Positions 2,545 to 34,002 of a DNA stretch of 64,000 nt are shown piece by piece. Position numbers and translations under genes: made by a program. Numbering within the stretch: position 1 is the stretch's first letter; each line of letters opens with the position of its first letter. Under the pieces are notes generated by a model. That model had not been told where the DNA came from. It searched no databases and worked only from the letters and a program-made list of their open reading frames with translations. The stretch is from positions 310,001-374,000 of the forward strand of contig CANLLF010000003.1 in assembly GCA_947491935.1 (NCBI GenBank), written 5' to 3'. Source of the DNA: an uncultured Roseicyclus sp. Its GTDB lineage: Bacteria; Pseudomonadota; Alphaproteobacteria; Rhodobacterales; Rhodobacteraceae.

Positions 2545-2943
2545 GTGCTGAAAATCGTAGAACAAGGCGCAAAGTCCGATCTTCCGTTCAGCCCCGCCAT
2601 CGTCGCGGGCGATCTTGTATTCGTCTCCGGGCAGGCCTCCGTTGATCGGACGGACGGACATATCATCAACGGTTCATTCGAAGAGGAAATGCGCCGCTCG
2701 ATCGAGAACATGGAGGCGATATTGAAGGCCGAGGGGCTGAGCCTCGATCATGTGATCAACGTGAGTTGTTATCTCGCGCGGCCTGAAGACGTGGCCGAGC
2801 ACAACCGGATCTACGCCGAGTATTTCAGTGAGCCGCGCCCAACCCGTACGACCATCACCGGCGTTTTGGGCACGATGCTGAAGTATGAGTTGGACTGCGT
2901 GGCATATGCCCCCAAACGGCGCCAAGAGGCGCAGCGCGGCTAG
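2545..2943 (+). CDS. RidA/YjgF/UK114-family enamine/imine deaminase
   Basis: A 132-residue single-domain Rid protein. Rid proteins hydrolyse reactive enamine/imine intermediates released by PLP enzymes. The conserved arginine lies in PRPTRTTI (R101) and the conserved acidic residue in YELDCVAY (E115). The GTG start follows the regulator stop by 18 bases. It converges on the fold-III PLP enzyme with a 4-base overlap of the stop ends. Pairing with PLP enzymes in this cluster fits a role in clearing their by-products. The exact Rid subfamily (RidA or Rid1-7) was not assigned. Confidence 0.85.
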   Translation: MLKIVEQGAKSDLPFSPAIVAGDLVFVSGQASVDRTDGHIINGSFEEEMRRSIENMEAILKAEGLSLDHVINVSCYLARPEDVAEHNRIYAEYFSEPRPTRTTITGVLGTMLKYELDCVAYAPKRRQEAQRG

Positions 2944-4223
2944 AATTCGGTCAGCACGCCGGCGGTGACGTCATAGGCGTCGTTGACGATAGGCAGGAAG
3001 CGCCATTTGTCGAACGCGGTGCAAGGATGCGAGATACCGCTGCCGATCATGTCGCCGACCTGCCAATCGCTTGTCGCGGGCAGGCGCACGAAGGCGTGTT
3101 GATCATTCATCGCAAAAATCTCCGCCGGTCCGATTGGCGCTGATCCCTTGCCCGGAACGTGGCGCGCGAAGGGCACAGGCAGGCCAGCATCATAGGGCGC
3201 GTCGCGTTTGCCCATGGTCAGCAGTGCAAGCTCCGGCTCTGGGCGGGATTGCACATAGGCCCATATCTCAAGCGCGGGTTTCAGCGTGGAGGACCAGCCT
3301 CTGGACGGGTCTTTGCGGGCCGTTTCCTGAGCCGCGAAGTAGGTTCCTGAATCGTTAGTGATATAGCACCCGCTGCGCAGCACGATCCGAACCGGGACCG
3401 GCAGGGACAGCGTCGCAAAGGCCCTGGCCATCATGTCGAAATGAGCGGAGCCGCCTCCCGTCAGAATGAACTCGTCCAACCCGTTCAGGAGGGCTGGCGG
3501 CAAAGCGGTCGCGATATCGACGACCGTCTTGGCATAGGTGGCGACGGGATCCGCGCTGTCGGCAATGCCGGGAACGACGCCCTCGAAGGCGGCAACGCCT
3601 GCAAAGCGGATAAGCTGTGGATCGGCCTGGACTATGGCATCGGCGAGCGCGTCTGCCTGCGCACGCGTTCGCACGCCGGTGCGCCCGCCTCCAACACCCA
3701 CTTCAAGCAGAACGCGCACGGGGCGGGGCGGCGGGGCCGCCCTCAGATGTCGCTCGATCAGGGCCAATTGTGCCGGGGAGTCAACGAAGCAGTAGAACGC
3801 AAGATCCGGATCGCGGTGCAGCATCGCGGAGACACTGGCCACCACGGACTTGCCGATCAGTTGATTGCCAAGGAGGATGCACTGCACGCCATAATGGTGC
3901 ATGACCAGCGCCTGCTGCACCGTGGCCGCCGTGATCCCCCAGGCGCCATGGGCCAATTGCTCATCGAACAGCTGTGGCGTCATCGTCGTTTTGCCGTGGG
4001 GGGCAAGCGAAAGGTCGTGCGCGGTAAGGTAGGCTCCGAACACCTGCGCGTTGTGGTCAAGATGTGAGCGCCTGAGCAACATCAGCGGCAGGGGCAGGTC
4101 TTCGTCCATGACGTTCCAGCCCTGGGCCCCGATATCGCCCAGACGAAACGGCGCGACCGTTCCGGGTATACCCTTCGTCCGACCATCAAGGAGGGTGTCG
4201 TCTAGGTGCTTGAGATCCATCAC
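2940..4223 (-). CDS. Fold-type III PLP enzyme, amino acid deaminase / D-threonine aldolase-D-serine dehydratase-like
   Basis: 427 residues with an alanine-racemase-type N-terminal barrel. The PLP lysine lies in LAPHGKTTM (K78), a motif typical of the DSD1/D-threonine aldolase group. Near the C-terminus GISHPCTAFDKW supplies a His (399) and Cys (401) pair that binds a metal in that group. The expected reaction is metal- and PLP-dependent cleavage or deamination of a D-beta-hydroxy amino acid in the cytoplasm. Its start overlaps the stop of the upstream aldolase gene (4-base ATGA), so it is the last gene of a six-gene minus-strand operon beginning near 8581. Confidence 0.78.
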   Translation of the reverse strand: MMDLKHLDDTLLDGRTKGIPGTVAPFRLGDIGAQGWNVMDEDLPLPLMLLRRSHLDHNAQVFGAYLTAHDLSLAPHGKTTMTPQLFDEQLAHGAWGITAATVQQALVMHHYGVQCILLGNQLIGKSVVASVSAMLHRDPDLAFYCFVDSPAQLALIERHLRAAPPPRPVRVLLEVGVGGGRTGVRTRAQADALADAIVQADPQLIRFAGVAAFEGVVPGIADSADPVATYAKTVVDIATALPPALLNGLDEFILTGGGSAHFDMMARAFATLSLPVPVRIVLRSGCYITNDSGTYFAAQETARKDPSRGWSSTLKPALEIWAYVQSRPEPELALLTMGKRDAPYDAGLPVPFARHVPGKGSAPIGPAEIFAMNDQHAFVRLPATSDWQVGDMIGSGISHPCTAFDKWRFLPIVNDAYDVTAGVLTEF

Positions 4224-5026
4224 AGGTCTCCGAAAGCCGCCATTGCAGCGTCGGCGTAATTGACCAAGGCAATCACATCCGCGCCCACGCTCAGGAAATT
4301 ATAGCCCATATCGGCGTAGGTGCCGATATTGGGCTGCGCGCAAACCGTGGCGGCGATCTTGCCGTTCTTGCGCGCCACCTCGGCGACACGGCGGCGGACG
4401 TTTTCGATGTCGGGGTGATCCAATTGCCCGGGGATGCCGAGGGCGACGGAGTAGTCACCGGGGCCAAAGAACAGGCAATCCACTCCATCGATCTCGGCGA
4501 TGGCCTCAAGGTTTTCGACAGCCTCCGGATCCTCGATCTGGTGGCAGATGAACCGCTCCGCATTCGCTTGCTTCATATAGTCCAGAAGGCCGACGCGGGT
4601 GAACTGGGCATCGGCGTTCCCGCCATCGACTGCGCGTTGTCCCAAAGGATAAAATTTCGTGTAATTTTTTACATTTGTGGCATCTTCTTCATTCATCACA
4701 TGAGGCACGATAAGCCCCGTCGCGTCGAGCTCCAGGCCGCGGACATAGTCGCTGTAACTGCCGCGCGCGACGCGTAACACGGTGTCCACGTCGTGGATGC
4801 GCGCGGCGCGGATCTGGTGTTCGATGTCCGACCAGGTGGCCCCCACATGCTCCATGCACAGCCAGATCGCATCGGGTTGGGCGCTGGCGAAGATCTCGGC
4901 CACTTTCGGATCGGTGGTGTTCAGCTTCAGCACGCGGGCAACTTTGCCGTCGCGGATCTTGCGCAACACGCGGCTGCGACGCAGCGCGAAGGTACCGGGG
5001 GGCTGCGCAGAATAGGGGTCGGCCAT
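4220..5026 (-). CDS. HpcH/HpaI-family class II aldolase (2-keto-3-deoxy acid aldolase type)
   Basis: 268 residues. The metal ligands fit E165 in HQIEDPEA and D191 in the FFGPGDYS motif, matching the Glu and Asp of HpaI/GarL. The family carries out retro-aldol cleavage of 2-keto-3-deoxy sugar acids or 4-hydroxy-2-ketoacids to pyruvate plus an aldehyde, using a divalent metal. It lies between an SDR and a PLP enzyme, with 15 bases upstream and a 4-base overlap downstream. A 2-keto-3-deoxy acid made by the adjacent oxidoreductases is a plausible substrate, by inference. Confidence 0.85.
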   Translation of the reverse strand: MADPYSAQPPGTFALRRSRVLRKIRDGKVARVLKLNTTDPKVAEIFASAQPDAIWLCMEHVGATWSDIEHQIRAARIHDVDTVLRVARGSYSDYVRGLELDATGLIVPHVMNEEDATNVKNYTKFYPLGQRAVDGGNADAQFTRVGLLDYMKQANAERFICHQIEDPEAVENLEAIAEIDGVDCLFFGPGDYSVALGIPGQLDHPDIENVRRRVAEVARKNGKIAATVCAQPNIGTYADMGYNFLSVGADVIALVNYADAAMAAFGDL

Positions 5027-5041
5027 GGCAAAAGTCCTTGA

Positions 5042-5830
5042 TTATTTCGCGGTGTAGCCGCCGTCGATAGGGATATTGGCACCAGTGATGTAAGCCGACG
5101 CATCGGAAGCCAGAAAGACGATGATACCTTTGAGATCGGTCTCGTTTGCCATCCGCCCAAGCTGCGTCCGCTCGGAATAGGCGGCGACGAAAGGGCCGGG
5201 TTGGCCGGTGAAAAAGCCGCCGGGCGCGACGCAATTTACCCTAATGCCGTGGGCCCCGAGGATGCTGGCGGCCCAACGGCTGAAGTTCTGCATCCCGCCT
5301 TTCTCATAGAAATAGAGCGGCGATGGATTGTCGTGCATGTTGGTACCGACATAATTCGCAGGCTCCACCCCGACGGTGCCCATCATCGAGCCGATGTTGA
5401 TGATCGAGCCGCGGCCACGGGTTTTCATGCCCTCGGAGATCAGATGGGTGAGATAAAACAGCGAGGACGCGTTGACGCGCAGCGCTTCGTCATAGGCATC
5501 CATTGGCCCGCCCCAGAGGGCGGCAGGGTTCCGTGTAACCGCATTGTTGACGAGGATGTCGCAGCCGTCGGTTTCCTCGGCGATCTGAGCGACAAGCGTG
5601 TCGATGGAGGATTCATCGCCCAGATCAAGGGGCAGGGCGCGCACATGAAATCCGCGCGCACGCTCTTCCCGCGCCACCGCTTCAAGCGCCTCGATACCAC
5701 GCGAGGCGATGTAGGTCGTGGCCCCGGCCTCGGCCAAAGCGGCGACAATCTGGCGGCCGTAAAGCCCCGCACCACCAGTCACCAGCGCCACTTTCCCGGT
5801 CAGGTTCAAGGTCTCCATCACGTTACTCAT
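5042..5830 (-). CDS. SDR-family oxidoreductase (gluconate 5-dehydrogenase/PtmA-like)
   Basis: 262 residues with cofactor motif TGGAGLYG (18-25), NNAVTRN in place of the usual NNAG, and catalytic YFYEK (YxxxK) after a short insertion rich in Asn/Pro. The inserted loop before the catalytic Tyr resembles that of the second SDR at 6789, so the two look like paralogues. The start codon shares one base with the stop of the upstream Gfo/Idh gene (TGATG). Likely oxidises a sugar or sugar-acid hydroxyl; substrate not identified. Confidence 0.83.
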   Translation of the reverse strand: MSNVMETLNLTGKVALVTGGAGLYGRQIVAALAEAGATTYIASRGIEALEAVAREERARGFHVRALPLDLGDESSIDTLVAQIAEETDGCDILVNNAVTRNPAALWGGPMDAYDEALRVNASSLFYLTHLISEGMKTRGRGSIINIGSMMGTVGVEPANYVGTNMHDNPSPLYFYEKGGMQNFSRWAASILGAHGIRVNCVAPGGFFTGQPGPFVAAYSERTQLGRMANETDLKGIIVFLASDASAYITGANIPIDGGYTAK

Positions 5831-6804
5831 CAGCCTGCCTCGATGTCGGTCAACTGGATTTCTATGCCACCATTTTCGCGGCTCTCAATGCCCGCGATGA
5901 CAAGCTTCATCAGCTCTTGGGTCTCGGACCATGGCACCGGCGGGGTACCGCTGCGCAGCCAGTCGACCACGCCCATCAGTTGCGTCTTGAACGCATGGTA
6001 GGTGTCCTGAGACCGTAGTTGCACACCACCTTTCGTGCCTGCCAGCGTCAGAAACCCGGAGCCGCCGATCTGGTCCGCGATGACGGAAATCGTTACGTCG
6101 ATACCGTGGCGGTGCATCAGGTGGACAATGTTTCGCTCGAAGGTGCCGGTGTTGCGGACGCTGACGAAGCCCGGCCCGGTGATCGGCAAGATCGCTTCCA
6201 ATGCGTGAATGCCGTAGGTTTCCCACTTCTTGGCCATGGTCATGGTGACGTGCCGCAAGGCGCCGAACTCATGGGTGCTGGTATGGAAGGGCGTGAATTC
6301 CTTGACATAGCGCATCGCAGATGAGCTGAGGATCGGATGGCCCTCTGCCACCCATTTTGAGAACTGCCGCAGATCGGCGCGGTTGTCGCAAAGCGGTTTG
6401 TCGATGAACACCGGGAGGCCGGCCTCAATGAAAGGCCGCGCGCGGGCGACGTGTTGGTGCCCGATATCCGTCGCGATCACCACAGCGTCGACATGGCCGA
6501 TGACATCTTCGGCGCGGTCCACGACATTGGGGATATGGGCGACAGCGGCGACTTGCGCCGCATCGGCGGGATCGTCTGTCCAGACATGCGTGACCTGCGC
6601 GCCGGAGATCCCGAGCGTTTCGGGGGGCTGCTTGGCGATGTAGTCGCGGATCGTGGCGTAGGGGCAATCGGCCAGCGCGGCGGCGTCATAGCTGCCGTTG
6701 ATGATGATGCTCCAGGAATAGGGGTGGCCGTTGCCTTCCGTCATTCCGAGCATCGCGAGCCTCAGGGGCCTGTCACCCAAGGGAAACGCTACCATGCCGT
6801 CCAT
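5830..6804 (-). CDS. Gfo/Idh/MocA-family oxidoreductase
   Basis: 324 residues. The N-terminal NAD(P)-binding half (RLAMLGMTEGNGH, then DAVVIATDIGHQHVARARP) is followed by the signature FIDKPLCDN containing the catalytic-region EKP-like motif (here DKP). A C-terminal alpha/beta domain follows. Enzymes of this family oxidise or reduce sugars and inositols. The N-terminal glycine motif is atypical (GMTEGNGH rather than GxGxxG). It is the downstream partner of an SDR in the first of two SDR + Gfo/Idh pairs and overlaps the upstream SDR stop by 16 bases. Confidence 0.8.
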   Translation of the reverse strand: MDGMVAFPLGDRPLRLAMLGMTEGNGHPYSWSIIINGSYDAAALADCPYATIRDYIAKQPPETLGISGAQVTHVWTDDPADAAQVAAVAHIPNVVDRAEDVIGHVDAVVIATDIGHQHVARARPFIEAGLPVFIDKPLCDNRADLRQFSKWVAEGHPILSSSAMRYVKEFTPFHTSTHEFGALRHVTMTMAKKWETYGIHALEAILPITGPGFVSVRNTGTFERNIVHLMHRHGIDVTISVIADQIGGSGFLTLAGTKGGVQLRSQDTYHAFKTQLMGVVDWLRSGTPPVPWSETQELMKLVIAGIESRENGGIEIQLTDIEAG

Positions 6805-7559
6805 CCTCCATCCACGCCCAGAACCTGGCCGGTGACATAACTTGCCGCATCCGACAGCAAGAACACCACCGCGCCTGCGGTTTCATGGCGTTCCCCCATG
6901 CGGCCCATCATCGTGTCGCGGGTGAGGTTGGTGATGAATTCGGGGTGGGCGTCCTGCACCGCCTTCGGCGGAAAAGGCCCCGGCGCGATCGCGTTCACGC
7001 GTATGCCGCGCCGGCCGTAATGGCTGGCCATGTAGCGGGCCATCTGGCCGATCCCCGCCTTGCCCGCGCCGTAGTCGACCGGGTTGGGGGGCATGTCGCC
7101 GGGGTAGTTCGTAGGGTCAGGGGCGACGACACCGTACATCGAACCATAAAACACCATCGCACCGCCCCGTGGCATCGCCTTGGCCGCCGCGCGCGCCAGT
7201 AGAAACGTGCCCGTCAGGTTTATGCGGTTCGAGCGCTCGAAGTCAGCCGCCTCAAGCCAGTCGAAATGTGTGTTGCTGGACCCGGCCGTTGCCATGACAA
7301 GGCCGTGCAGGTCGCCACATTCGGCCACGCAGGCCAGGATCGCCGCCTCGTCGCCCATGTCGATGGAGTGGGTGGTGACGGTTCCTTCGCCCGGCTGCGC
7401 GTCCAGAGTCGCTTTTGCCTCGGCAAGACGTTCGGCATGTTGGTCCGCAATGCACAGGCTCGCACCATGCGCGCGCAACGCTTCGCATACCGGCAGGCCG
7501 AGATAGCCCGCGCCACCCGCGATCAGCACCGTCTTTCCAACCATCGAAAAGAGGTTCAT
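6789..7559 (-). CDS. SDR-family oxidoreductase resembling PtmA of the nonulosonate pathways
   Basis: 256 residues with cofactor motif AGGAGYLG near the N-terminus and catalytic YGAGK. The stretch SMYGVVAPDPTNYPGDMPP followed by the catalytic Tyr resembles flagellin-modification PtmA proteins, which act on amino sugars in legionaminate metabolism; that resemblance is from memory of the family. The gene overlaps both neighbours (16 bases downstream, 4 bases upstream), placing it firmly in the operon. Together with the NanA-like lyase at 14552 it hints at an amino-sugar acid substrate. Confidence 0.8.
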   Translation of the reverse strand: MNLFSMVGKTVLIAGGAGYLGLPVCEALRAHGASLCIADQHAERLAEAKATLDAQPGEGTVTTHSIDMGDEAAILACVAECGDLHGLVMATAGSSNTHFDWLEAADFERSNRINLTGTFLLARAAAKAMPRGGAMVFYGSMYGVVAPDPTNYPGDMPPNPVDYGAGKAGIGQMARYMASHYGRRGIRVNAIAPGPFPPKAVQDAHPEFITNLTRDTMMGRMGERHETAGAVVFLLSDAASYVTGQVLGVDGGWTAW

Positions 7560-8581
7560 GACGCGGTGTCCAGATCGATGAAGCGGCGCTCGACCCAGGA
7601 TTGTTTGGCCGCCAGCGCCAGCGAAAGGTTGGTGCGCGCATCAGACAGGGTCGCCAGCGGGTCGGGTTTGCCGTCCAGCGCATCCAGCATGGTATCGGCC
7701 TGCATGGTGAACCGCGCCTGATGGGCTTGCATAGGGACCATCCCCTCCATGAAGTCCCGCTGTTCCGACCAATGCCCGCTGTCGTCGTCCGCAAAACTAA
7801 GCGTTGCGTGGTCCAGCCTGAGGTTACCGCTGGTTCCGATGAATTCCGCCGCCGCCACGTTGCGCTTTTGGAACTGGTTGATCGTCAGATTTGCCATGGC
7901 ACCGCTGGCGAACCGGATCGAGATCAGACAGGTATCCTCGGTCTCGCTTCCGTCGAGGGCAAAGCGATCGTACATCGCGCCCACCGTCACCGGCCGCCCC
8001 ATGATCGAAATCAGCATGTCAAAGCTGTGGCTGGCGGCATCCAGGATCGCGCCACCGCCCATATCGGGGCGGGCGTAATAGGTTGTGCGGTAATCGGGGC
8101 GATACTTGCCGAAATCCTGCGAACTGTTGAGATAGGCGAGCTTCAGTGCCCCGATCTTGCCCGCATCGATCTGCGCGCGCAGATGGATCACCTCGGGCGC
8201 GATCCGCCGGATGTAACCGACACGGGCCAGTATACCGGCGCGGGCGACGGCGGCGATGGCCGCATCGACCCCCTCCAATGTGACGGCAAGCGGTTTTTCC
8301 ACCAGAAACGGCAGTTTCGCCGCCGCACAGGCCTCCATCATTTCGACATGAAAATTGGCCGGTGTGCAGATCACCGCAAGATCATGATCCGTCAAATTGG
8401 CCTGTCCGAGGTTCTCATAAGCCGCCACAGGGGCAAATTCCGCGACCGCCGCCTCCCGCTTGGCCGCATCCGGTTCGATCAGGGTCAGATCCGCCCGCCC
8501 GGTTTCCAGATATCCCTTGATATGGCGCCTTCCGATACCGCCGACACCGACGATCAGAACGTTGCGTTTCCCTGAATCCAC
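7556..8581 (-). CDS. Gfo/Idh/MocA-family oxidoreductase, first gene of the minus-strand operon
   Basis: 341 residues. The dinucleotide motif VGVGGIGRRH (11-20) and the catalytic-region FLVEKPLAVT are textbook for the family. A central PDMGGGAILDAASHSFDML contains the D-x3-H type active-site segment. It probably catalyses NAD(P)-dependent oxidation of a sugar or cyclitol. It is the promoter-proximal gene of the operon that runs down to 2940 and is divergent from the ABC importer, with which it shares the 8582-8889 control region. Confidence 0.87.
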   Translation of the reverse strand: MDSGKRNVLIVGVGGIGRRHIKGYLETGRADLTLIEPDAAKREAAVAEFAPVAAYENLGQANLTDHDLAVICTPANFHVEMMEACAAAKLPFLVEKPLAVTLEGVDAAIAAVARAGILARVGYIRRIAPEVIHLRAQIDAGKIGALKLAYLNSSQDFGKYRPDYRTTYYARPDMGGGAILDAASHSFDMLISIMGRPVTVGAMYDRFALDGSETEDTCLISIRFASGAMANLTINQFQKRNVAAAEFIGTSGNLRLDHATLSFADDDSGHWSEQRDFMEGMVPMQAHQARFTMQADTMLDALDGKPDPLATLSDARTNLSLALAAKQSWVERRFIDLDTAS

Positions 8582-8889: not shown

Positions 8890-10509
8890 ATGAATAAGCT
8901 ACTTACGACATCCATCATGGCGCTGGTCGCAGCGCAGGTTGCCGGTGGTGCGACGGCCCAGGCGATCAACGACAGCGAGCTGTCGGATCCGCGTGTCCGG
9001 CAGGCGATTGCCTACGCCATCGATATGGAGACGATTGCGGAAACCCTGTTCGAGGGGGCCGCTATCCCGGCTGTTGGCCTGACATCAGACCCCGCCAATT
9101 ACCCCGACGGCATGAACACCTATTCCTATGACCCGGAGCGCGCCCGTGAATTGCTGGCAGAGGCGGGATGGGACGGCAGCCGTACTCTTGATATGGTCTA
9201 CTACTACCCGGACGAGTTGACGGCGAACTTCATGGCGGTTGTGCAGGCTCAGTTGGCTGATGTGGGCATCGACATGAACTACCGCCTGCTGGAAGGGGAC
9301 GTAGGCGCGCAGATCGGCGGCGTGCCGGACGATCCGGTGAACGGGCCGGCGGTTGTGGAATGGGATATCCTCTACGGCGCGAGGGCCGCGATCGCCAACC
9401 AGGAATACTTCAATCGCTTTGCGCCCGGCCAGATGCCGACCGTGCCAACGATCGATGCCATGGTGCCGCTGGTCGAAGCCGTGAACGCAACCGCAGATCC
9501 CGAGGTTCAGCGTGCCGGGTATCAGGAGATGGAGGGCATCATCAACGACGGCGCCTATATCCTGCCGCTCTATTACCAGCAGCTCTACATTTTCGAGAGC
9601 GACCGGATTAATCGAAACGGCGCGCCCTACGGCAACGAGCAGTATAACTACAACTCAGCCATCGAAACATGGACCGTCGAGCCGAACGAGGACGGCGAAG
9701 CGGTCGCCTATACCAACGGCGCACCGATGCAGTTTTTCGAGGTGCCGTGGCAAAACCTCGGCATCTGGGTGCATAGCAAATACGTCTTCGATACCATTCT
9801 TGAGGCGGACGGAGCCCTTACGCCCATCGGTGGCGAGTTGGCCGAAACCTACGAGGTTTCGGAGGACGGCATGGTCTTCACGTTCACGCTGCAAGACGGG
9901 CTGACATGGCATGACGGCTCGCCGCTTACCGCCGAGGATGTGCAATGGAGCATCGAGGCGGCGGCGCAATTCCCGCTGACGCATCCGGTCCTCGCGTCGA
10001 CGCTTTCAAGCATCGAAGGGGCGGATGCCTTGCTGGCCGGGGATGCCGACAGCATGAGTGGCATCTCGATCGACGGCAACACCGTGACGATCACATTCGA
10101 AGTGCTTGATCCGAATGTCTTTTTGTCATTCTCTCAATTCGCACCGTTGCCGAGTTCCTACTTCGAGGGCGTCGATCCCCTGCAGCTTCAGCAACACGAG
10201 TTCTGGCAGATGCCCATCGGCTCTGGCCCGTTCATGATTGAAGAGGCCCGGATGAACGAATTCACAACTCTTGTGCCGTTCCCGGACTACCATCGTGGTG
10301 AGGCTCTGATTGAGCAGATCATCGCCCTGCCGTCGGCAGATGGGGATGCAAACCTGATCCGCAACGCGGCCGCCTTCCGCGCCGACTTCGGCTACTCCAA
10401 GAATGCGACGGACGTGCCGTCGCTGGAAGAGATGGAGCATATGACGGTGATCCCGGCAAACATCCCCTACACGCGGATGTTCTGGATCAACCAGTTCCCG
10501 CGCAACTAA
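8890..10509 (+). CDS. Family 5 ABC substrate-binding protein, circularly permuted
   Basis: 539 residues with a Sec signal peptide ending AQA (residue 25). The normal order of SBP_bac_5 proteins is swapped. Residues 27-262 hold what is normally the C-terminal half: SDPRVRQAIAYAID (32-45), YSYDPERARELLAEAGW (78-94) and the LPLYYQQLYIF end segment (225-235). Residues 270-539 hold the normal N-terminal half: GELAETYEVSEDG (315-327), LTWHDGSPLTAEDV (338-351), SGPFMI (445-450) and PDYHRGE. The last residues WINQFPRN read naturally into the first mature residues NDSELSDPRVR, so the old internal loop became the termini and the old termini are joined by a linker near 262-275. One frame, signal peptide and stop are intact. 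Periplasmic peptide, opine or glycan-derived ligand binding is expected. Confidence 0.85.
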   Translation: MNKLLTTSIMALVAAQVAGGATAQAINDSELSDPRVRQAIAYAIDMETIAETLFEGAAIPAVGLTSDPANYPDGMNTYSYDPERARELLAEAGWDGSRTLDMVYYYPDELTANFMAVVQAQLADVGIDMNYRLLEGDVGAQIGGVPDDPVNGPAVVEWDILYGARAAIANQEYFNRFAPGQMPTVPTIDAMVPLVEAVNATADPEVQRAGYQEMEGIINDGAYILPLYYQQLYIFESDRINRNGAPYGNEQYNYNSAIETWTVEPNEDGEAVAYTNGAPMQFFEVPWQNLGIWVHSKYVFDTILEADGALTPIGGELAETYEVSEDGMVFTFTLQDGLTWHDGSPLTAEDVQWSIEAAAQFPLTHPVLASTLSSIEGADALLAGDADSMSGISIDGNTVTITFEVLDPNVFLSFSQFAPLPSSYFEGVDPLQLQQHEFWQMPIGSGPFMIEEARMNEFTTLVPFPDYHRGEALIEQIIALPSADGDANLIRNAAAFRADFGYSKNATDVPSLEEMEHMTVIPANIPYTRMFWINQFPRN

Positions 10510-10604: not shown

Positions 10605-11567
10605 ATGCTCACCTATATCGCCCGCAGATTGCTGACCCTGATCCCGATGGTGATCGTCATCAGTTTTCTGATTTACCTCGGACTTGAGCTCACCCCGGGA
10701 GACGCCGTTTCCCACATGATCCCGCCCGATGCCTACGGTTCGATGGATCCTGATCGCCTGCAGGAATTGCGGGAGAGTCTCGGGCTCGGAAAACCGTTCG
10801 CAGTACGCTATTGGATCTGGATCTCTGGCGTTGTTCAGGGCGATTTCGGTTATAGCCTGGCGGGCGGTGTGCCGATTGCCGACATTTTCCTCGACCGGTT
10901 GCCAGCCACGCTTGAGCTGTCTTTCGCGGCCCTTTTGATCTCGACCATCCTGGGCTCCATTCTCGGCACCATCAGCGCGCTCACGCGGGGCAGCGCGACG
11001 GATCAGGGGCTGACGGTTGTGGGCATGCTTGGTGTGTCTATCCCGGAGTTCTTCTTTGGCCTCGTGGCGATCCTCGTCTTCGCCATCAACCTTGATTGGT
11101 TGCCGGTGGGCGGGCGGACCCTGCCGGGGTATGACAGTTTCTGGGATCGGTTGCCCAATCTGGTGATGCCGGCGCTGGTGTTGTCGATCATGATGACTGC
11201 GGGGGTGATGCGCTATGCGCGATCCTCCATGCTCGATGCGCTCAGCCGGGATTTCATCCGCACCGCCCGGTCCAAAGGGATGCCGGAGTGGCGCGTCAAT
11301 ATCCTGCATGGGTTTCGTGTGGCCCTCACGCCCGTGATCGTGCTGATCGGTTTTCGGCTGCCTGTCCTGATCGGTGGCTCCGTCATTATCGAGCAGGTGT
11401 TTCAATGGCCGGGCATCGGCAAGGAATTCGTCTCCGCCGTGCGCAGCCAGGACTACCCGCTTGTGATGATGGTGGCCTTGTTCTCGGTGCTGGCGGTGCT
11501 GATCGCCAGCCTGATCGTTGATCTGCTGACGGCGATCATCGATCCACGCGTCCGGTTGGGGGAGTAG
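10605..11567 (+). CDS. ABC transporter permease, DppB/OppB type
   Basis: 320 residues with the standard N-terminal MLTYIARRLLTLIPMVIVIS membrane segment and about six membrane spans. The cytoplasmic EAA loop (DALSRDFIRTARSKGMPEWR) docks the ATPase, and the usual GGSVIIEQVFQWPGIG segment follows. It forms half of the inner-membrane channel for the ligand delivered by the preceding binding protein. It begins 42 bases after the intergenic hairpin and is followed by the second permease after 4 bases. Confidence 0.93.
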   Translation: MLTYIARRLLTLIPMVIVISFLIYLGLELTPGDAVSHMIPPDAYGSMDPDRLQELRESLGLGKPFAVRYWIWISGVVQGDFGYSLAGGVPIADIFLDRLPATLELSFAALLISTILGSILGTISALTRGSATDQGLTVVGMLGVSIPEFFFGLVAILVFAINLDWLPVGGRTLPGYDSFWDRLPNLVMPALVLSIMMTAGVMRYARSSMLDALSRDFIRTARSKGMPEWRVNILHGFRVALTPVIVLIGFRLPVLIGGSVIIEQVFQWPGIGKEFVSAVRSQDYPLVMMVALFSVLAVLIASLIVDLLTAIIDPRVRLGE

Positions 11568-11571: not shown

Positions 11572-12507
11572 ATGGTCGACGCGCCCATCACCCGCCCGAG
11601 AACCCGACGGGACGGCCAGTTCGACCGGCTGCGCGACCGCGAAACGTCGATGCAGGGCAAAGCCAAACGCCGGGGCCGGTTCCTGGGCAAGTTCCTCAGC
11701 AACCGGTTGGCGCTTGTGGGCTTCGTCATCTTTACAATCATCTGCCTGATGAGCCTGTTTGCGCCGCTGATTGCGCAACATAATCCGATGTCGCCAAACC
11801 TGCGCGCAATCGCGCAACCGCCCTCGGTCGAACATTGGTTCGGAACCGACAAGACCGGCCGCGATATCTTTGCCCGCGTGCTCTATGGCGGCCGCGTGTC
11901 GATCCTCGTGGGCTTGGGCAGTGCCCTCCTGTCGGCTTTGATCGGCGTGATCATCGGCGTATATTCGGGATATGTCGGCGGGTGGCTCGATTGGATCGCG
12001 ATGCGCGTGTCCGAGATCTTCATGTCGTTTCCGCAGATCATCCTGGTTCTGCTGCTGGTTGCGATCCTCGGCCAGTCGCTGTTGAATCTCATCGTCATTT
12101 TCACGCTGACGGGGTGGGGGGGCATCTACCGGATGGCGCGGGCGCGGATGCTCTCGATCCGCGAGGAGGAATATGTGCAGGCCTTGCGCAGCTTCGGCCT
12201 TGGCCCCGCGCGCATCGCCTACAAACACATGCTGCCCAATGCGCTCGGCCCGATCATGGTCAACATCACCCTGTCGACGGCTGCGTTCATCTTGCAAGAA
12301 GCGGGCCTGAGCTTTCTGGGCCTTGGTGTGCCGCTTTCGATCCCGACATGGGGCAACATCCTGAACGCCGCGCAGGACTTGCGCGTGCTTGAGCAAAACT
12401 GGTGGATCTGGCTGCCCGTCGGCGCCACGATTTCGCTCTTCGTGCTGAGCGTCAATTTCATCGGCGACGGCTTGCGGGACGCAACCGACCCGTCGCAGCA
12501 GGGGTAG
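11572..12507 (+). CDS. ABC transporter permease, DppC/OppC type
   Basis: 311 residues. A hydrophilic N-terminus of about 40 residues precedes the first membrane span, then the family motif HWFGTDKTGRDIFARVLYGGRVSI and the EAA loop (ARMLSIREEEYVQALRSFGL). FLGLGVPLSIPTWGNIL lies near the end, as in DppC. Partner of the upstream DppB-like subunit. The first ATPase gene starts 4 bases after its stop. Confidence 0.93.
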   Translation: MVDAPITRPRTRRDGQFDRLRDRETSMQGKAKRRGRFLGKFLSNRLALVGFVIFTIICLMSLFAPLIAQHNPMSPNLRAIAQPPSVEHWFGTDKTGRDIFARVLYGGRVSILVGLGSALLSALIGVIIGVYSGYVGGWLDWIAMRVSEIFMSFPQIILVLLLVAILGQSLLNLIVIFTLTGWGGIYRMARARMLSIREEEYVQALRSFGLGPARIAYKHMLPNALGPIMVNITLSTAAFILQEAGLSFLGLGVPLSIPTWGNILNAAQDLRVLEQNWWIWLPVGATISLFVLSVNFIGDGLRDATDPSQQG

Positions 12508-12511: not shown

Positions 12512-13519
12512 ATGGAACATGACGTCGCCCTGACCGTGAAGGGCCTCAAGACATACTTCTACAATAACAACCGCTGCAATCGTGCCATTGACGGTGTGTC
12601 GTTCGAGATCCGGCAGGGCAAGACCCTGTGCATCGTGGGCGAAAGTGGCTGCGGCAAGAGCGTGACCGCCGCCTCCATCATGCAGCTTTTGCCGACGCTC
12701 AGCCGGATCGAGGAGGGCGAGATCACCTATCACGGCCCCGACGGCCCGGTGCGGATCGATGCGTTGGACCGCGGCGGCGCTCAGATGCGCAGCATCCGTG
12801 GCAAAGAAATAGCGATGATCTTTCAGGACCCGATGACGGCCCTGAACCCGGTCTACTCCATCGGCTTCCAGATTAAGGAAATGCTGATGTATCACACGGG
12901 CCTGGGCCGCAGGGAGCGCCACGACAAGGCCATCGATCTGCTGGCGTCGATGGGGATCCCGCTGCCGGAACGGCGTGTGAATGAGTATCCACACCTTTAT
13001 TCCGGTGGCATGCGGCAGCGCGCGATGATTGCCATCGCGATGTCGTGTAATCCGCGTATCCTCATCGCGGACGAGCCCACGACAGCGCTCGACGTCACGA
13101 TCCAGGCCCAGATTTTCGAGCTGATGGATACGCTTAAACGCGAGAACGGGACCGCGATCATGCTCATCACCCACGATATGGGGGTGGTGGCTGAATTGGC
13201 CGACGACGTGGCCGTGATGTATATGGGCAATATCGTTGAAGCGGGCCCGGTGGGCACGGTCATGCGCAACCCCGTGCATCCCTATACTCGTGCGCTTTTG
13301 GACTCGATCCCGGTTCTGGGGCGCGGCAAGGATCAGGAGATCAAGGCGATCCCCGGCCAGACACCCGATCCCTATGACCGGCCGAAAGGCTGCCAATTTG
13401 CGGATCGCTGTAGGCACCGGATCGACAAATGTGACCAGATGCCGCCCGAAACCCAGGTGTCCGACGATCACCGCGTGATGTGCTGGCGCTATGAGGAGTT
13501 TGCTTCCGATGGCCGCTGA
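12512..13519 (+). CDS. ABC transporter ATP-binding protein, DppD/OppD type
   Basis: 335 residues. Walker A GESGCGKS (43-50), Q-loop [10 protein letters not shown], signature YSGGMRQR, Walker B RILIADEP followed by TTALD, and the H-switch ITHDMG are all intact. The C-terminal oligopeptide-type extension with cysteines ([15 protein letters not shown]) is present. It powers import through the two upstream permeases. Its end overlaps the next ATPase start by 11 bases. Confidence 0.94.
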
Positions 13520-14516
13520 TCCGATCCTGAGCCTTCGTAACGTCGAGGTGCATTTTCCGGTTCGGACCGGCGTACTCAAACGCGTGACGGCCCATGTCCG
13601 CGCAGTGGATGGTGTGGATCTGGACGTTTATCGCGGCGAGGTTCTGGGGCTTGTGGGCGAAAGCGGCTGTGGCAAGACCACGCTTGGTAAGGCGATCCTG
13701 CAGCTGGTGCGCGCGACGCAGGGCACCGTGACCTATTCCGGAGAGGACGGCGAGACAGAACTGACGACGCAGGATGATGCAGGGCTGTTCGCCTTCCGCA
13801 AACGGTTGCAGATCGTGTTTCAGGATCCCCATTCCTCGTTGAACCCGGCTTTCACCATCTTCGGTTCGTTGGAGGATCCCCTGCGCCATTACGGCGTGAA
13901 AACCCGAGCGGAGCGCCGCAAGATCGTGGGCGATCTGCTGGAGGCGGTGAACATGCGCCGCGAAGCAATGGACCGCTATCCACATGAGTTTTCCGGCGGG
14001 CAGCGCCAGCGCATCGGCATCGCCCGCGCGCTCAGCATCGACCCGGAGCTGATCGTCTGCGATGAGGCGGTCAGCGCGCTGGACGTCTCGATCCAGGCGC
14101 AGGTCTTGCAACTGCTGATGGATCTCAAGCGTGAGAAGAACCTCACCTATGTGTTCATCACCCATGATCTGAGCGTCACGGAATACCTCTGCGACCGGAT
14201 CGCCGTGATGTATCTGGGCAAGGTTGTGGAGCTTTGCGACGCCGAGGAGCTTTATTCCAACACCCTCCATCCTTACACGCAGGCCCTGCTATCAGCGATC
14301 CCGGTCGCAGATCTCGACCGCAAGTCGCAGCGTATCGTCCTGCAAGGCGATGTGCCGAGCCCGATCAATCCGCCTTCGGGCTGTCCCTTCCATCCGCGCT
14401 GCCGGTTTGCGCAAGACATCTGCCGAACCGACGTGCCCCGCCTCCGGGCGTACAAGGCCGGGTCGGGCGTGCACATGGCGGCCTGTCACCTGATCGATCA
14501 ACCCCTCGCGGACTGA
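13509..14516 (+). CDS. ABC transporter ATP-binding protein, DppF/OppF type
   Basis: 335 residues from the ATG that overlaps the previous gene (MAADPILSL). Walker A GESGCGKT, signature FSGGQRQR and Walker B ELIVCDEAVSALD are present. The last of these has DEAVS instead of DEPTS, a variant common in DppF-like subunits. A Cys-containing C-terminal extension (GCPFHPRCRFAQDIC) completes it. It pairs with the preceding ATPase. The lyase gene follows after 35 bases, so transport and catabolism are probably co-transcribed. Confidence 0.93.
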   Translation: MAADPILSLRNVEVHFPVRTGVLKRVTAHVRAVDGVDLDVYRGEVLGLVGESGCGKTTLGKAILQLVRATQGTVTYSGEDGETELTTQDDAGLFAFRKRLQIVFQDPHSSLNPAFTIFGSLEDPLRHYGVKTRAERRKIVGDLLEAVNMRREAMDRYPHEFSGGQRQRIGIARALSIDPELIVCDEAVSALDVSIQAQVLQLLMDLKREKNLTYVFITHDLSVTEYLCDRIAVMYLGKVVELCDAEELYSNTLHPYTQALLSAIPVADLDRKSQRIVLQGDVPSPINPPSGCPFHPRCRFAQDICRTDVPRLRAYKAGSGVHMAACHLIDQPLAD

Positions 14517-14551: not shown

Positions 14552-15481
14552 ATGGCCAACTACTCCATTGCTGATTTCAAGGGGGTCATTCCGGCGCTCG
14601 TGACCGCGTTCGATCTGGACGGCACGCTGAACGAAGGCCTGACGCGTGGCTTGACCGCATCGCTTCTGGCGCGCGGCGTCGATGGCCTCTACCTCACCGG
14701 CTCCACAGGGGAAGGGTTCATGATGAGCCCCGAAGAACGAATGCGGGTCGTCAAGATCGTCTGCGACGAGGTGGCGGGGCGCGTGCCGGTGATGGTCCAT
14801 GTGGGCGCGATCAGCACCTATCAGACCGTGGCGTTGGCACAGCAGGCAGAGGCGGCCGGCGCCGACGCGATCTCATCCGTGCCGCCGATCTATTGGCCAT
14901 TCACACCCGATCAGGTGGCGAATTATTACCGGGATGTCACGGCGTCCACGGGGCTGCCGATGGTGGCATACAATATAACGCTGGCCGGTGCGCTTGGCTT
15001 CGACATGCTGGCGCGTATGGGCGAAATCGACGGGCTTGAAGGCGTGAAATACACTGCGCCCACGCATTTTGAGATCGGTCGGATGAAACGCGAGATCGGG
15101 CCGCAGTTCCGCGTGTTCTCCGGGGCCGATGAGATGGCGATGTCTGGCCTCGCATTCGGTGCGGATGGGTTGATCGGGTCCTTCTACAACATCATCCCAG
15201 AGCTTTATGCCGACTTGATCAAGGCGATGGCTGACGGGCGTTTGGACGACGCCAAGGCCCTGCAAGACAAGGCCAATGACATCATCTTTTTCACGCTGAA
15301 ACAGTATCCGATGTCGGCGGTCAAACGGATCATGGCGTGGCAAGGTGCCGACGCGGGGTATTGCCGCAAGCCCTTCGACAATTACGAGACGCCGGATCAG
15401 GAAGAGGCGCTCAAGGCCAGCTACCGCGCGTTTCGTGACGCCCATGGCCTGACGGGGATTGGATTTCTGGACGGGATCTAA
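14552..15481 (+). CDS. DapA/NanA-superfamily lyase (N-acetylneuraminate-lyase-like aldolase)
   Basis: 309 residues from the ATG of MANYSIADF. The carboxylate-binding motif GSTGEG (50-55), the catalytic-region Tyr in VAYNIT (Y140) and the Schiff-base lysine in GVKYTAP (K166) are all present with family spacing. Class I aldolases of this family cleave sialic acids or condense/cleave pyruvate with aldehydes. GSTGEGFMMSPEER resembles the NanA branch, and the position directly behind a transporter supports a catabolic lyase. The exact substrate cannot be read from sequence. It converges on the amidohydrolase with a 4-base overlap. Confidence 0.85.
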   Translation: MANYSIADFKGVIPALVTAFDLDGTLNEGLTRGLTASLLARGVDGLYLTGSTGEGFMMSPEERMRVVKIVCDEVAGRVPVMVHVGAISTYQTVALAQQAEAAGADAISSVPPIYWPFTPDQVANYYRDVTASTGLPMVAYNITLAGALGFDMLARMGEIDGLEGVKYTAPTHFEIGRMKREIGPQFRVFSGADEMAMSGLAFGADGLIGSFYNIIPELYADLIKAMADGRLDDAKALQDKANDIIFFTLKQYPMSAVKRIMAWQGADAGYCRKPFDNYETPDQEEALKASYRAFRDAHGLTGIGFLDGI

Positions 15482-16509
15482 GCGGTACCGGGTTTGGGCA
15501 CGCTGTCGACTAAAGCCCGCGCAGTGTCGTGAAACAGCGCCCTGCGCTGCGCCTCCGTCAGGCCGATCTGCCGTGCGCCCCGCTTCATCGCGCGCAGCTG
15601 CTCATAGCGGATAAAGGTCATGTCCGGGTTGCAATGCCCAAGCGACAAAGTGTGATTGCCCCGATGCAGCAGGCTCCACGCCCGTCCGAACGATATATAT
15701 TTTCCCCGCATCGGCCCGATCAGATCATCGCTGCCATACATGACACGCTCCACGCCCACGCCGGTATAAAGCGCATCCAGCGCGTCGGCTTCACACACGG
15801 TGGAGGTGTCGTACCAGATGTTCGGAATGCCGCGCAGGGCCGAGGCTGCGGCCTCGATGGCCCAGGCGGAGTAGCTGCGCGCGCAATGGGCCAGGATCCA
15901 TTTGGCGTTGGGGTAGTGGGCCGTCAGGCGCAGCAGATCGTTGATGTTGTCGGGGTCGGCCACAGCGTCGCGTTTGGATAGGTGCATCATGATGATCAGG
16001 CCCAATTCGTCGGCCAGCGCGATCTGCGCCTCGGGCAGAAAATCGGTGATCGCGGCATCGGCGGGCGCGGATCCCTGAGCGTAAACCAGGTATGGCTTCA
16101 GACCGATAAGGCCCGTTTGGCGCAACGTCACGCGGATCGCGTCGGGTGTCATCTCAGGGTGCACCAGCATCAGACCGGCAGACCCCGGTCTAACCTCGGC
16201 CGCGACCAGCGCGTTGGCGGCGTCCACATCCATCGGTTTCGGGTAGGGATAGGGGAAGGAGAGCCGGTCAACGATGCGGCCGGGCATCAGGCTGGCGTCA
16301 ACGGCATCGGCAATCCCGCGGTCTGCGCGCGGGAAATGGCTGCCGATGGTCGCGGCATAGGGGCCTGCCGCCTTGGCGGGATCCGTGTAATGGGACCAGT
16401 CGTGCAGATGGGTGTGCACGTCGAAGATGCGGTTTGGCACGAAGGCGTCAAGCTCTTCGCGCCAGATCCGCGCATCGAGCGGCGTTGGTGTCCAAGGCAG
16501 GTTCGTCAT
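15478..16509 (-). CDS. Amidohydrolase 2-family TIM-barrel hydrolase
   Basis: 343 residues. The metal motif FDVHTHLHDW (H32, H34) is near the N-terminus, IIMMHLSKR and WILAHCARSY give the later histidines, and GSDDLIG provides the last-strand aspartate. Such enzymes hydrolyse or decarboxylate lactones, amides or carboxylates. It is divergent from the aminotransferase at 16575 and convergent with the NanA-like lyase. A lactonase or deacylase role in the same pathway is an inference. Confidence 0.82.
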   Translation of the reverse strand: MTNLPWTPTPLDARIWREELDAFVPNRIFDVHTHLHDWSHYTDPAKAAGPYAATIGSHFPRADRGIADAVDASLMPGRIVDRLSFPYPYPKPMDVDAANALVAAEVRPGSAGLMLVHPEMTPDAIRVTLRQTGLIGLKPYLVYAQGSAPADAAITDFLPEAQIALADELGLIIMMHLSKRDAVADPDNINDLLRLTAHYPNAKWILAHCARSYSAWAIEAAASALRGIPNIWYDTSTVCEADALDALYTGVGVERVMYGSDDLIGPMRGKYISFGRAWSLLHRGNHTLSLGHCNPDMTFIRYEQLRAMKRGARQIGLTEAQRRALFHDTARALVDSVPKPGTA

Positions 16510-16529
16510 GGCCTGGGCTCTTGATGGAT

Positions 16530-16549
16530 CATGTTAATCGTATATCAGT
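16530..16549. promoter_or_regulatory. Possible operator, weak CATGTTA copy 3
   Basis: CATGTTAAT occurs in the 65-base divergent gap between the amidohydrolase and the aminotransferase, followed 13 bases later by TATAAC. Only the CATGTT(A) half is shared with copies 1 and 2, so this is a weak candidate. Its location in the third divergent promoter of the cluster is what makes it notable. Confidence 0.3.
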
Positions 16550-16574
16550 ATAACTTGGCGAGAGGGAGAGTGTC

Positions 16575-17879
16575 ATGCGCAAGGGGCAGGATCTTTGGGA
16601 GCGCGCCAAGGCCGTGATCCCTGGTGGGAATATGTTGCTGTCGAAACGACCCGAGATGCATCTGCCCGCCGCCTGGCCTGCCTATTTTTCGCGCGCCTCC
16701 GGCGTCACGGTCTGGGATATGGACGGGCGCGCGCTAACCGACATGTCGCTGATGAGCGTTGGGACCAATACGCTCGGCTACGGCCACAAGAAGGTTGATG
16801 CGGCGGTGCGCGACGCGATCGATGCGGGCAACATGTCGACGCTGAACGCGCCCGAGGAAGTCCTGCTCGCTGAACGCCTGATCGACCTGCATCCTTGGGC
16901 CGACATGGCGCGGTTTGCCAGGACCGGGGGGGAGGCGAATGCCATCGCGGTGCGGATCGGGCGCGCGGCCTCCGGTCGCGACGGCGTGGCGTTGTGCGGC
17001 TATCACGGGTGGCATGACTGGTATTTGGCTGCAAATCTGGGCGATGCGGATCGGCTGGAGGGGCACCTGCTGCCGGGGCTGGCGCCCGCCGGGGTGCCCC
17101 GAGATCTTGCGGGAACGGTGTTCCCCTTCTCCTACAACGATCTGGAGGGCCTTGAACGGATAGTCGCGGAGCAGTCCATCGGCGTCATCAAGATGGAGGT
17201 GCAGCGCAGCGGGCCACCGGCGCCGGGCTTCCTGCAAGCGGTCCGTAAGCTTGCGGATGCCCATGGGATTGTTCTGATATTCGATGAATGCACATCGGGG
17301 TTCCGGCAGGCATTTGGTGGTTTGCACAAGGTCCATGGCGTTGACCCTGACCTTGCCGTGTTCGGTAAGGCGTTGGGCAATGGCTACGCGGTCACCGCTG
17401 TGATCGGGCGGCGCGCGGTGATGGAAGCGGCGCAAAGCACTTTCATCAGTTCCACCTTCTGGACCGAGCGGATCGGCTCCGTCGCCGCCCTCGCTACACT
17501 CGACGCGATGGAGGCCTGCGCGTCGTGGGATGTCATCACACAGACCGGTCGTGCGATTGGCGAGCGTTGGAAAGGGCTGGCGGACACGCATGGGCTGGAC
17601 ATCAATGTGGTGGGCCTGCCCGCGTTGACGGGATTTTCCATTGGTGGGCCCGATGCCCTAGTCTACAAGACACTGATCGCGCAGGAGATGCTGAAGGCGG
17701 GCTACCTTGCCGGCACCAGCGTCTATGTCTGCACCGCCCATACGCCAGGCGTGATCGACGGCTATTTCGAAGCGCTGGACCCGGTCTTTGCGCTGATCGC
17801 TGATTGCAGGAATGGGCGCGACCCGGCGGGGCTTCTGGACGGGCCGGTTTGCCACGCCGGGTTCGCGCGGCTGACCTGA
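16575..17879 (+). CDS. Class III aminotransferase, glutamate-1-semialdehyde aminomutase-like
   Basis: 434 residues of fold-type I PLP enzyme. LWERAKAVIPGG at the start and MARFARTGGEANAIAVRIGR are typical of the HemL-like branch. GYHGWHDWY, then FDECTSGFR (the PLP-ring Asp) and the Schiff-base lysine in VFGKALGNGY (K265) follow. It probably transaminates or moves an amino group on a keto/aldehyde intermediate. A housekeeping HemL role is unlikely given the catabolic context. The RBS GAGGGAGAG is eight bases upstream of the ATG. Confidence 0.86.
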   Translation: MRKGQDLWERAKAVIPGGNMLLSKRPEMHLPAAWPAYFSRASGVTVWDMDGRALTDMSLMSVGTNTLGYGHKKVDAAVRDAIDAGNMSTLNAPEEVLLAERLIDLHPWADMARFARTGGEANAIAVRIGRAASGRDGVALCGYHGWHDWYLAANLGDADRLEGHLLPGLAPAGVPRDLAGTVFPFSYNDLEGLERIVAEQSIGVIKMEVQRSGPPAPGFLQAVRKLADAHGIVLIFDECTSGFRQAFGGLHKVHGVDPDLAVFGKALGNGYAVTAVIGRRAVMEAAQSTFISSTFWTERIGSVAALATLDAMEACASWDVITQTGRAIGERWKGLADTHGLDINVVGLPALTGFSIGGPDALVYKTLIAQEMLKAGYLAGTSVYVCTAHTPGVIDGYFEALDPVFALIADCRNGRDPAGLLDGPVCHAGFARLT

Positions 17880-18636: not shown

Positions 18637-18777
18637 CTGATGCCATTACTCCTATCTAGTTCGTCGATGGTAGTTATATTCTGTTGGTATTCCTAGGTTG
18701 CCGTCGTTCCTCTCTGGCGCAGACGCGTCGTGAGCTGTGCTCTAATTCTTGAAGCTCAGACCCGAAAGGACGCTGCC

Positions 18778-19551
18778 ATGACACCTCCCGCCCCTGATCT
18801 GGCGCAGCTTTCCCACAGCTTCAGCGACGACGGCTATGTCGCGCTCATGCCGCTGTTCGATCGCGACAAGATGGTCGAGATCAATGCCGAGCTTGACCGC
18901 TATATCCGCGATGTCATGCCGGGCATGCCCACGGAGGAGGTTTACCTCGAGGATCGTGCTAACCGCTCCACCCTGAAGCAGATGCAGAAGCTTTCGGTCT
19001 ATGATGAGTATTTCCGCACCTTGATGGAGGACAGCGTGATCCGCGACATCGCCAGCGCGGTGATGGGTGAGGCGGCAGTGCCGCAGAACCTGCAATACTT
19101 CAACAAGCCCGCCGGGATCGGGCAACCGACGCCGCCGCATCAGGACGGGTATTACTTCCACCTTTCGCCCTGCAAGGCGGTGACGGGCTGGCTCGCGCTG
19201 GAGCCTGTGGACGCGGAAAACGGTTGCATTCATTATGTGCGCGGTTCGCACAAGGCGGATGGGTTTCGGCCCCACGGACGCTCGAATGTGCTGGGGTTTT
19301 CCCAAGGCCTGACCGATTTTGGCACTGCCGAGGACAAGGCCCGAACGGTCTCGTTTCCCGGCACGGAGGGGACGTTTCTCATGCATGACGCGCGCACCAT
19401 CCATTGGGCTGGGGCGAACCGGTCGCCCACCCGGACCCGGCGCGCGCTTGGCTTCGTCTATTTCGGCGAGAGCGCAAAGATCGATCACGCGTCAAAAGCG
19501 GCCTACAAGGCCAAGCTTGAAGCTGATCTGCGTGCGCAGGAAAAGATCTAG
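18778..19551 (+). CDS. Phytanoyl-CoA dioxygenase (PhyH)-family Fe(II)/2-oxoglutarate oxygenase
   Basis: 257 residues from the ATG with AAAGGA seven bases upstream; an in-frame GTG 48 bases earlier lacks support. The iron ligands are HQD (H121, D123) in TPPHQDGYYFHL and a distal His in RTIHWAGANRS (H209). The 2OG-binding Arg lies in SPTRTRRALGF. PhyH-like enzymes hydroxylate or oxidatively demethylate small acids and modified amino acids. Only one base separates it from the following lyase gene, so they form an operon under the divergent AraC regulator. Confidence 0.86.
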   Translation: MTPPAPDLAQLSHSFSDDGYVALMPLFDRDKMVEINAELDRYIRDVMPGMPTEEVYLEDRANRSTLKQMQKLSVYDEYFRTLMEDSVIRDIASAVMGEAAVPQNLQYFNKPAGIGQPTPPHQDGYYFHLSPCKAVTGWLALEPVDAENGCIHYVRGSHKADGFRPHGRSNVLGFSQGLTDFGTAEDKARTVSFPGTEGTFLMHDARTIHWAGANRSPTRTRRALGFVYFGESAKIDHASKAAYKAKLEADLRAQEKI

Positions 19552-24874: not shown

Positions 24875-25540
24875 ATGACGAACCGCCTCGATATTCTGGA
24901 AACCTGCAAGGCCGAGCTTTATTCTGCGGTGGTCTGCGATACGCTCGACGGCCTGGGCCTGCGCAACCAGGCCATGGCGCCAGGGCTAGCGCCACTGGCC
25001 GACGGCATGACGATTTTCGGATATGCTCGCGTCGGTCTTTATATGCCGATCTATCACGACGATGCGCAGGTGGATGTCTACGAGCACGAAATCGCCCTGG
25101 TGGACGATTTGGCGCCGGGGGATGTTCCCGTGATCTCGTGTAATGGCAACCTCGGCATCGCCCCCTGGGGGGAGTTGTTGTCGACCCGCGCCCAGGTGCT
25201 GCAAAGTGCGGGATGTATCACCGACGGCTGCGTCCGCGACGTCCGGATGATCTGCGATATGGGCTACCCGGTGTTCTGTGGCGGGCGCAATCCTGTGGAT
25301 ACCAAGTATCGGGGCAAGATGATGTGGTATGACGTGCCCTGCGTCATCGGCGGTGTGCTGGTCAATTCAGGCGATCTGGTCATCGCAGATCTTGATGGCA
25401 TCGTGTTCGTTCCCCGGGATCGTGTCGAGGAAGTGGTGACGGGCGCTCTCGACAAGGTTCGATCAGAGAATACCGTGCGCGACGAGCTTCGGGCCGGGCG
25501 CAGCCTTGCGGAGGTCTTTGAGAAACATGGGATTCTTTAG
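24875..25540 (+). CDS. RraA-family aldolase-like protein (4-hydroxy-4-methyl-2-oxoglutarate aldolase type)
   Basis: 221 residues. The conserved block GCITDGCVRDV followed by MGYPVFCGG and the metal/substrate region VNSGDLVIADLDGIVFVP is the RraA signature. Members are either RNase E regulators or metal-dependent pyruvate aldolases/decarboxylases. In this catabolic context the aldolase or oxaloacetate-decarboxylase activity is likelier. A SD-like AAAGGAAA lies seven bases upstream. It sits downstream of the broken M81 gene, which may once have been its partner. Confidence 0.83.
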   Translation: MTNRLDILETCKAELYSAVVCDTLDGLGLRNQAMAPGLAPLADGMTIFGYARVGLYMPIYHDDAQVDVYEHEIALVDDLAPGDVPVISCNGNLGIAPWGELLSTRAQVLQSAGCITDGCVRDVRMICDMGYPVFCGGRNPVDTKYRGKMMWYDVPCVIGGVLVNSGDLVIADLDGIVFVPRDRVEEVVTGALDKVRSENTVRDELRAGRSLAEVFEKHGIL

Positions 25541-29498: not shown

Positions 29499-29577
29499 GC
29501 TGGTCGGGCCTTCTCTGGGCGCGCGACCACAAGATGGGCCGATGCGTTACAAGGCGCTCATCTTGCCCGCTTTGCAA

Positions 29578-29612: not shown

Positions 29613-29646
29613 TTTCTAACTGGCGACAATTGATCGGAACCCTGCC

Positions 29647-30543: not shown

Positions 30544-30579
30544 GTCTACCAAAAAACATATATAACAGGGAAATCTGCC

Positions 30580-32160: not shown

Positions 32161-32192
32161 ACCCCTGAACTCCGGAGAAAGGAGGCACCGGG

Positions 32193-34000: not shown

Positions 34001-34002
34001 GC

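Follow-up and report, generated by a model that had tools for sequence, protein, structure and literature searches.

The protein encoded at 8890-10509 on the forward strand of the window, as the whole 64,000-nucleotide stretch of Roseicyclus sp. DNA analysed here is termed, is identified by sequence comparison as a relative of OppA and DppA that carries a real, conserved and natural circular permutation. Its two halves stand in swapped order along the chain, this order is conserved among its homologues, and the gene is accompanied by a recurring cluster of importer and enzyme genes. The explanation that best accounts for these observations, and which is very probably correct, is that an ancestral normal-order SBP_bac_5 protein was permuted, giving a mature two-lobed protein with both inter-lobe crossovers kept and both chain ends in lobe 2, which serves the adjacent importer; the fold, the role in transport, the substrate class and the route of origin are the parts that we infer. 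The gene and its parts are as follows:

8890-10509, + strand: substrate-binding protein of 539 aa, SBP_bac_5 family (OppA/DppA class), with circularly permuted chain
8890-8964, + strand: signal-peptide-like N-terminus, aa 1-25, immediately preceding position 8965, cleavage site judged by eye
8965-9582, + strand: lobe 2, corresponding to domain III, aa 26-231, moved to first place; located by Pfam profile positions 212-326 and the alignment at OppA 486/487
9583-10464, + strand: lobe 1 (equivalent of domains I and II), aa 232-525, now second and contiguous; placed by Pfam profile positions 4-208 and alignment to OppA and DppA
9610-9744, + strand: region in which the former C- and N-termini are joined, aa 241-285
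10465-10506, + strand: C-terminal tail, aa 526-539, running from the hinge-1 crossover through the last lobe-2 strand to the free end; placed by the alignment at OppA 269/270

The open reading frame opens with ATG, closes with a clean stop and encodes 539 residues. Its N-terminus resembles a signal peptide, in agreement with the initial annotation, which had described a continuous frame with well-placed signal peptide and stop. The first 34 residues are free of cysteine. Similar N-termini, again recognised by eye, are present in 24 of the 27 rows of the homologue alignment (A1, the window protein plus 26 homologues); the exceptions are L032 and L048, whose rows begin within the ORF, and L043, which has no clear signal peptide.

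Pfam SBP_bac_5 (PF00496) is the sole Pfam family matched by the window protein at E 0.001, so that no membership of a cluster B sugar-binding family was found. The whole-protein match is strong (E 1.8e-57, 195.6 bits against a gathering cut-off of 32.4) and consists of two stretches in reversed order, aa 30-136 corresponding to profile positions 212-326 and aa 315-535 to positions 4-208. The usual N-to-C order of the profile is thus absent, and the two swapped stretches place the protein as a permuted variant rather than as an ordinary member of the family. Matches to PDB sequences are swapped likewise, with DppA 269-379, for example, aligning to residues 24-129, and the swap recurs when a 24-row profile is used as query. 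Ten NCBIfam models were also matched, every one below its cut-off. The exchange of the two halves proposed in the initial annotation is therefore borne out, and an hmmscan alignment in ordinary order, which it had named as the refuting outcome, did not occur.

Rotation of the sequence restores a single match. The mature chain was rotated at each fourth residue and scored against a profile built from normal-order relatives (47 ORFs, reduced to 41 distinct rows). In its natural order the best domain scored 126 bits and two domains were reported; rotations starting at residues 254-282 gave a single domain of approximately 248 bits. Against the Pfam profile, the rotated protein aligned as one continuous stretch (52-387 to profile positions 4-326, 206.6 bits). 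The binding protein at 30580, cited by the initial annotation as an in-window control of usual order, obtained its top score of 419 bits unrotated or nearly so, a value inflated by the presence of this protein among the 41 profile rows. Pfam served as an independent control and confirmed the usual order, with a single stretch covering residues 73-428 and profile positions 2-352. This normal-order protein belongs to a second Opp/Dpp-type importer at 28386-34965 of the window, preceded by an oxidase-like gene at 28386 and a possible RpiR-type regulator at 29647, both labels coming from reading of the sequence.

The swapped order is shared by all homologues in the A1 alignment, which are 51-98% identical to the window protein. 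All 27 rows carry two significant domains in swapped order, and chance is therefore no serious explanation. Five further cases lie outside these rows: three genes cut by contig ends (L051, L052, L054), one interrupted gene (L050) and the permuted gene of genome G563 (L055; L111), in which the order is swapped too. The search for homologues with permuted order that the initial annotation had proposed thus had a positive outcome. Both halves matched 39 permuted and 47 normal ORFs, repeats being counted since the same gene appears under several locus identifiers; 15 more were matched by one half only.

With only the best three candidates per genome scored in the whole-protein searches of family and class genomes, full-length collinear homologues were found in three of 13 genus genomes and five of 394 family genomes (the window's own genome counted in both), and the permuted protein in two of 385 genomes of the class sample, again including its own (threshold 1e-40). 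In the phylum sample of 349 genomes (threshold 1e-60) none was found beyond the window's own genome, and the plasmids searched at 1e-30 gave no match to the permuted protein. A scan of a genome contig collection recovered 27 loci with best-segment identities of 52-98%, recorded as Devosia (12), as Roseicyclus, Alexandriicola, Oceanicola, Flavimaricola, Planktomarina, Sulfitobacter or Rhodobacteraceae (7), and as others (8). MAG records labelled Caenibius (L029), Acidobacteria (L031) and Spirochaetes (L048) contain homologues that share 82, 80 and 56% identity with the window protein, respectively; misbinning is likely for the first two, a judgement not extended to L048. In Devosia algicola (NZ_CP118246; L050, 8001-9622) the tblastn match spans residues 1-537, yet the ORF is only 341 aa long, and the frame looks interrupted.

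In a quick joint tree of 27 permuted rows, rotated before alignment, and 44 normal rows, a single branch (SH-aLRT 100) separates the permuted proteins from all others, and their stem measures 1.29 changes per column; long branches leave the identity of their sister group uncertain. Separate trees of each half, from which five permuted rows were left out, again recovered the permuted rows as one group. The permuted proteins are under purifying selection, with dN/dS over aa 26-539 of 0.03, 0.055, 0.064 and 0.092 in four pairwise comparisons, in three of which dS was above 1.2. The natural circular permutation suggested initially is supported by the swapped order, the single match on rotation and conservation in separately assembled genomes; since relatives share the order, the rearrangement looks old.

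The position of the new ends can be predicted from OppA. OppA domain III is given as residues 270-486 and domain I residues 1-44, 189-269 and 487-517 (PMC6305025); the mature numbering of E. coli OppA was assumed to equal that of this structure. In the alignment with E. coli OppA, the boundary 269/270 falls at aa 525/526 of the window protein and the boundary 486/487 at aa 231/232. The chain is thus predicted to run through lobe 2 (26-231), cross to lobe 1 (232-525), which contains the junction of the former ends, and cross again to a final lobe-2 strand (526-535) with a free end. The boundary at aa 525/526 is followed by 14 more residues, and neither inter-lobe crossover is therefore expected to be lost, with both chain ends shifted from lobe 1 to lobe 2. 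Residues P526, Y527, T528 and R529, at the hinge-1 crossover, are invariant in A1. The cut would accordingly lie within lobe 2, in a loop 10-14 residues past hinge 1, and not at the hinge itself. The initial annotation had mapped the ends to an internal loop and expected consequences for the hinge: the loop stands, but it belongs to lobe 2 and closely follows hinge strand 1, and a change of crossovers is not expected from the OppA and DppA alignments. The idea that the cut removes one inter-lobe connection, leaving a single hinge, was dropped on account of the crossover at aa 525/526 and the residues that follow it.

The join itself is as well conserved as the remainder of the protein, with a mean pairwise identity of 0.68 over aa 241-285 and 0.66 over aa 26-539, although the old C-terminal tail is difficult to place in the alignment at this point. 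At the cut, six residues (536-539 and 25-26) are without counterpart in OppA or DppA, so that the new ends overshoot slightly. Duplication, fusion and trimming of the gene could have left such an overshoot, which does not, however, prove that route.

Structure predictions were of moderate confidence, so that their lobe arrangement and the docking of the C-terminal tail are only tentative. For the window protein (24 rows) AlphaFold2 gave pLDDT 69.6 and pTM 0.62; the model of a Devosia homologue (21 rows) was worse (pLDDT 65.1, pTM 0.50). In a Foldseek search of the PDB the leading matches were OppA-, DppA- and NikA-like proteins; among the best 50 of 620 matches, TMq did not exceed 0.35 over 185-286 aligned columns. 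Such partial matches fit a sequential aligner catching one half of a permuted fold at a time, which is compatible with the fold rather than proof of it; the two-lobed fold is likely preserved despite the permutation.

The OppBCDF-type transporter genes lie directly 3' of the permuted gene, and six enzyme genes lie upstream on the opposite strand. The presence of neighbours was scored at a minimum of 45% identity over the 27 loci, several of which are cut by contig ends:

2940-4223, - strand: Ala_racemase_N + D-ser_dehydrat protein, 21 of 27 loci
4220-5026, - strand: HpcH/HpaI aldolase, 23 of 27 loci
5042-5830, - strand: short-chain dehydrogenase, 23 of 27 loci
5830-6804, - strand: Gfo/Idh/MocA oxidoreductase, 23 of 27 loci
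6789-7559, - strand: short-chain dehydrogenase, 23 of 27 loci
7556-8581, - strand: Gfo/Idh/MocA oxidoreductase, 23 of 27 loci
10605-11567, + strand: OppB/DppB-type permease, 26 of 27 loci
11572-12507, + strand: OppC/DppC-type permease, 25 of 27 loci
12512-13519, + strand: OppD/DppD-type ATPase, 25 of 27 loci
13491-14516, + strand: OppF/DppF-type ATPase, 24 of 27 loci
14552-15481, + strand: DHDPS family, N-acetylneuraminate-lyase-like (NanA-like) aldolase, 23 of 27 loci
15478-16509, - strand: Amidohydro_2 family protein, 13 of 27 loci
16575-17879, + strand: class III aminotransferase (glutamate-1-semialdehyde aminomutase-like), 15 of 27 loci

The product of 2940-4223 is presumably, by its family, a PLP enzyme. 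The permuted gene is accompanied by the catabolic genes at 2940-8581 (- strand) and 14552-17879 in the majority of loci, and the neighbouring cluster can be read as a conserved catabolic route; in L048 all four transporter genes are present and the catabolic enzymes are all absent. Further along the window, relatives of a phytanoyl-CoA-dioxygenase-like gene (18730-19551, labelled by eye) and of an RraA-like gene (24875-25540) occur near the permuted gene in four and six of the 27 loci, respectively. A tRNA scan of the whole window found none.

No further binding-protein gene was seen in the importer operon, and the permuted protein therefore most likely serves the adjacent OppBCDF-type importer. 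It would deliver a small molecule to this importer and thereby to the neighbouring catabolic enzymes. Judging from the neighbouring genes, the ligand may resemble a sugar acid or an amino sugar rather than being an ordinary peptide. Peptide binders carry a W-x-x-D pair, described as W498 and D501 in AliD and as W442 and D445 in MtDppA (PMC11192437; PMC6751184). This pair, which OppA and DppA possess, is not found in the window protein: OppA W416/D419 align to W158/L161, in a region where the alignment is loose. Given this loose alignment, and since the normal-order protein at 30580 likewise has Ser in place of the Asp, the missing pair is no more than weak evidence against a peptide as ligand.

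The ancestor of this protein would have been a normal-order SBP_bac_5 protein of the OppA/DppA class (cluster C), permuted most simply once. A short linker would have joined the old C-terminus to the old N-terminus, and new ends would have opened in the lobe-2 loop just past hinge strand 1, right behind the signal peptide, so that the mature product would fold as a two-lobed flytrap that starts and ends in lobe 2. No close normal-order parent emerged from searches with the halves (relatives, class genomes, family genomes) or with the cognate permease (family genomes). Per half, the normal-order rows with the highest scores reach about 26-37% identity, with segment identities of 22-51% over partial matches. 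The cognate permease was recovered at E 1e-75 in five of 248 family genomes, namely, at 71-100% identity, the window's own and three others with the permuted protein, and one more, which at 43% holds the best permease among genomes without the permuted protein; around that permease (L110), no ORF of at least 300 aa matched the normal-order profile.

The same arrangement might have arisen by domain shuffling, if lobe 2 of one SBP gene had been fused before lobe 1 of another to give a chimera of two parents. The nearest normal-order row is indeed L076 for lobe 1 but L104 for lobe 2, and the BLAST rankings of the halves differ as well; both rows, however, adjoin the permuted group on long branches in the joint tree, so that the difference may be noise, and the halves combine into a single complete SBP. 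We regard such a fusion as unlikely, and its product would work identically. An artefact of assembly, or a rearrangement within this copy of the gene, has a negligible probability, because collinear homologues occur in many separately assembled genomes, including the chromosome record L043 (NZ_CP118247), which makes a local misassembly untenable.

Divergence from the normal-order SBPs found and the long stem branch might also suggest that the protein has moved from transport to another role, such as that of a sensor. This is highly improbable in view of the purifying selection, the signal-peptide-like N-termini and the importer genes alongside in 24-26 of the 27 loci. Permutation of a single transport protein is the reading preferred here. 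Within it, the inverted flytrap may have been retained because it serves a purpose: if both termini lie on lobe 2, where hinge strand 1 ends as a free C-terminal strand, lobe closing or permease docking could proceed unlike in OppA. The idea is speculative and rather doubtful, and if true, the family would represent a long-running natural experiment on hinge connectivity in ABC importers. The A1 family, with its range of identities, offers a ready set for relating chain connectivity to lobe closure, export and docking. Routine annotation can miss such permutations, as the Pfam score is strong and only the order of the stretches reveals the swap.

With cluster C binding proteins of the SBP_bac_5 family (OppA, DppA and NikA; PF00496), the window protein has in common the sequence homology of both halves, neighbouring OppBCDF-type genes as the cognate importer and a secretion signal, recognised by eye, and it likely shares their two-lobed flytrap. 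It differs from OppA and DppA in the swapped halves and in termini predicted to lie on lobe 2, whereas those of OppA lie on lobe 1. Natural permutation is already known in other binding-protein classes. In a limited search of the open PMC literature, which did not extend to subscription papers, none was found for the OppA/DppA class (cluster C) among the matches listed; the text of the CIRPIN preprint (PMC12667903) yielded no match to transporter, periplasmic or solute terms, and that of the OpuA paper (PMC2861598) none to permutation terms. According to the description of CPSARST, a permutation relates glycine-betaine and molybdate binders (PMC2395249); these pairs belong to another class, share less than 24% identity and were found by structure comparison, whereas the swap described here is plain from sequence. 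A further parallel is Tp0684 (MglB-2) of Treponema pallidum, described as a natural permuted ABC binding protein of a proposed 'Type Ic / Cluster Bc', whose homologues share its topology (PMC4990184). As in that protein, the old ends are joined, new ends lie elsewhere and the order is common to the homologues; Tp0684, however, is a glucose/galactose binder of Type I / cluster B in which permutation adds a fourth crossover, while the count is predicted to be unchanged here. With the window protein and its homologues, the large OppA/DppA class would join the binding proteins with naturally permuted chains.
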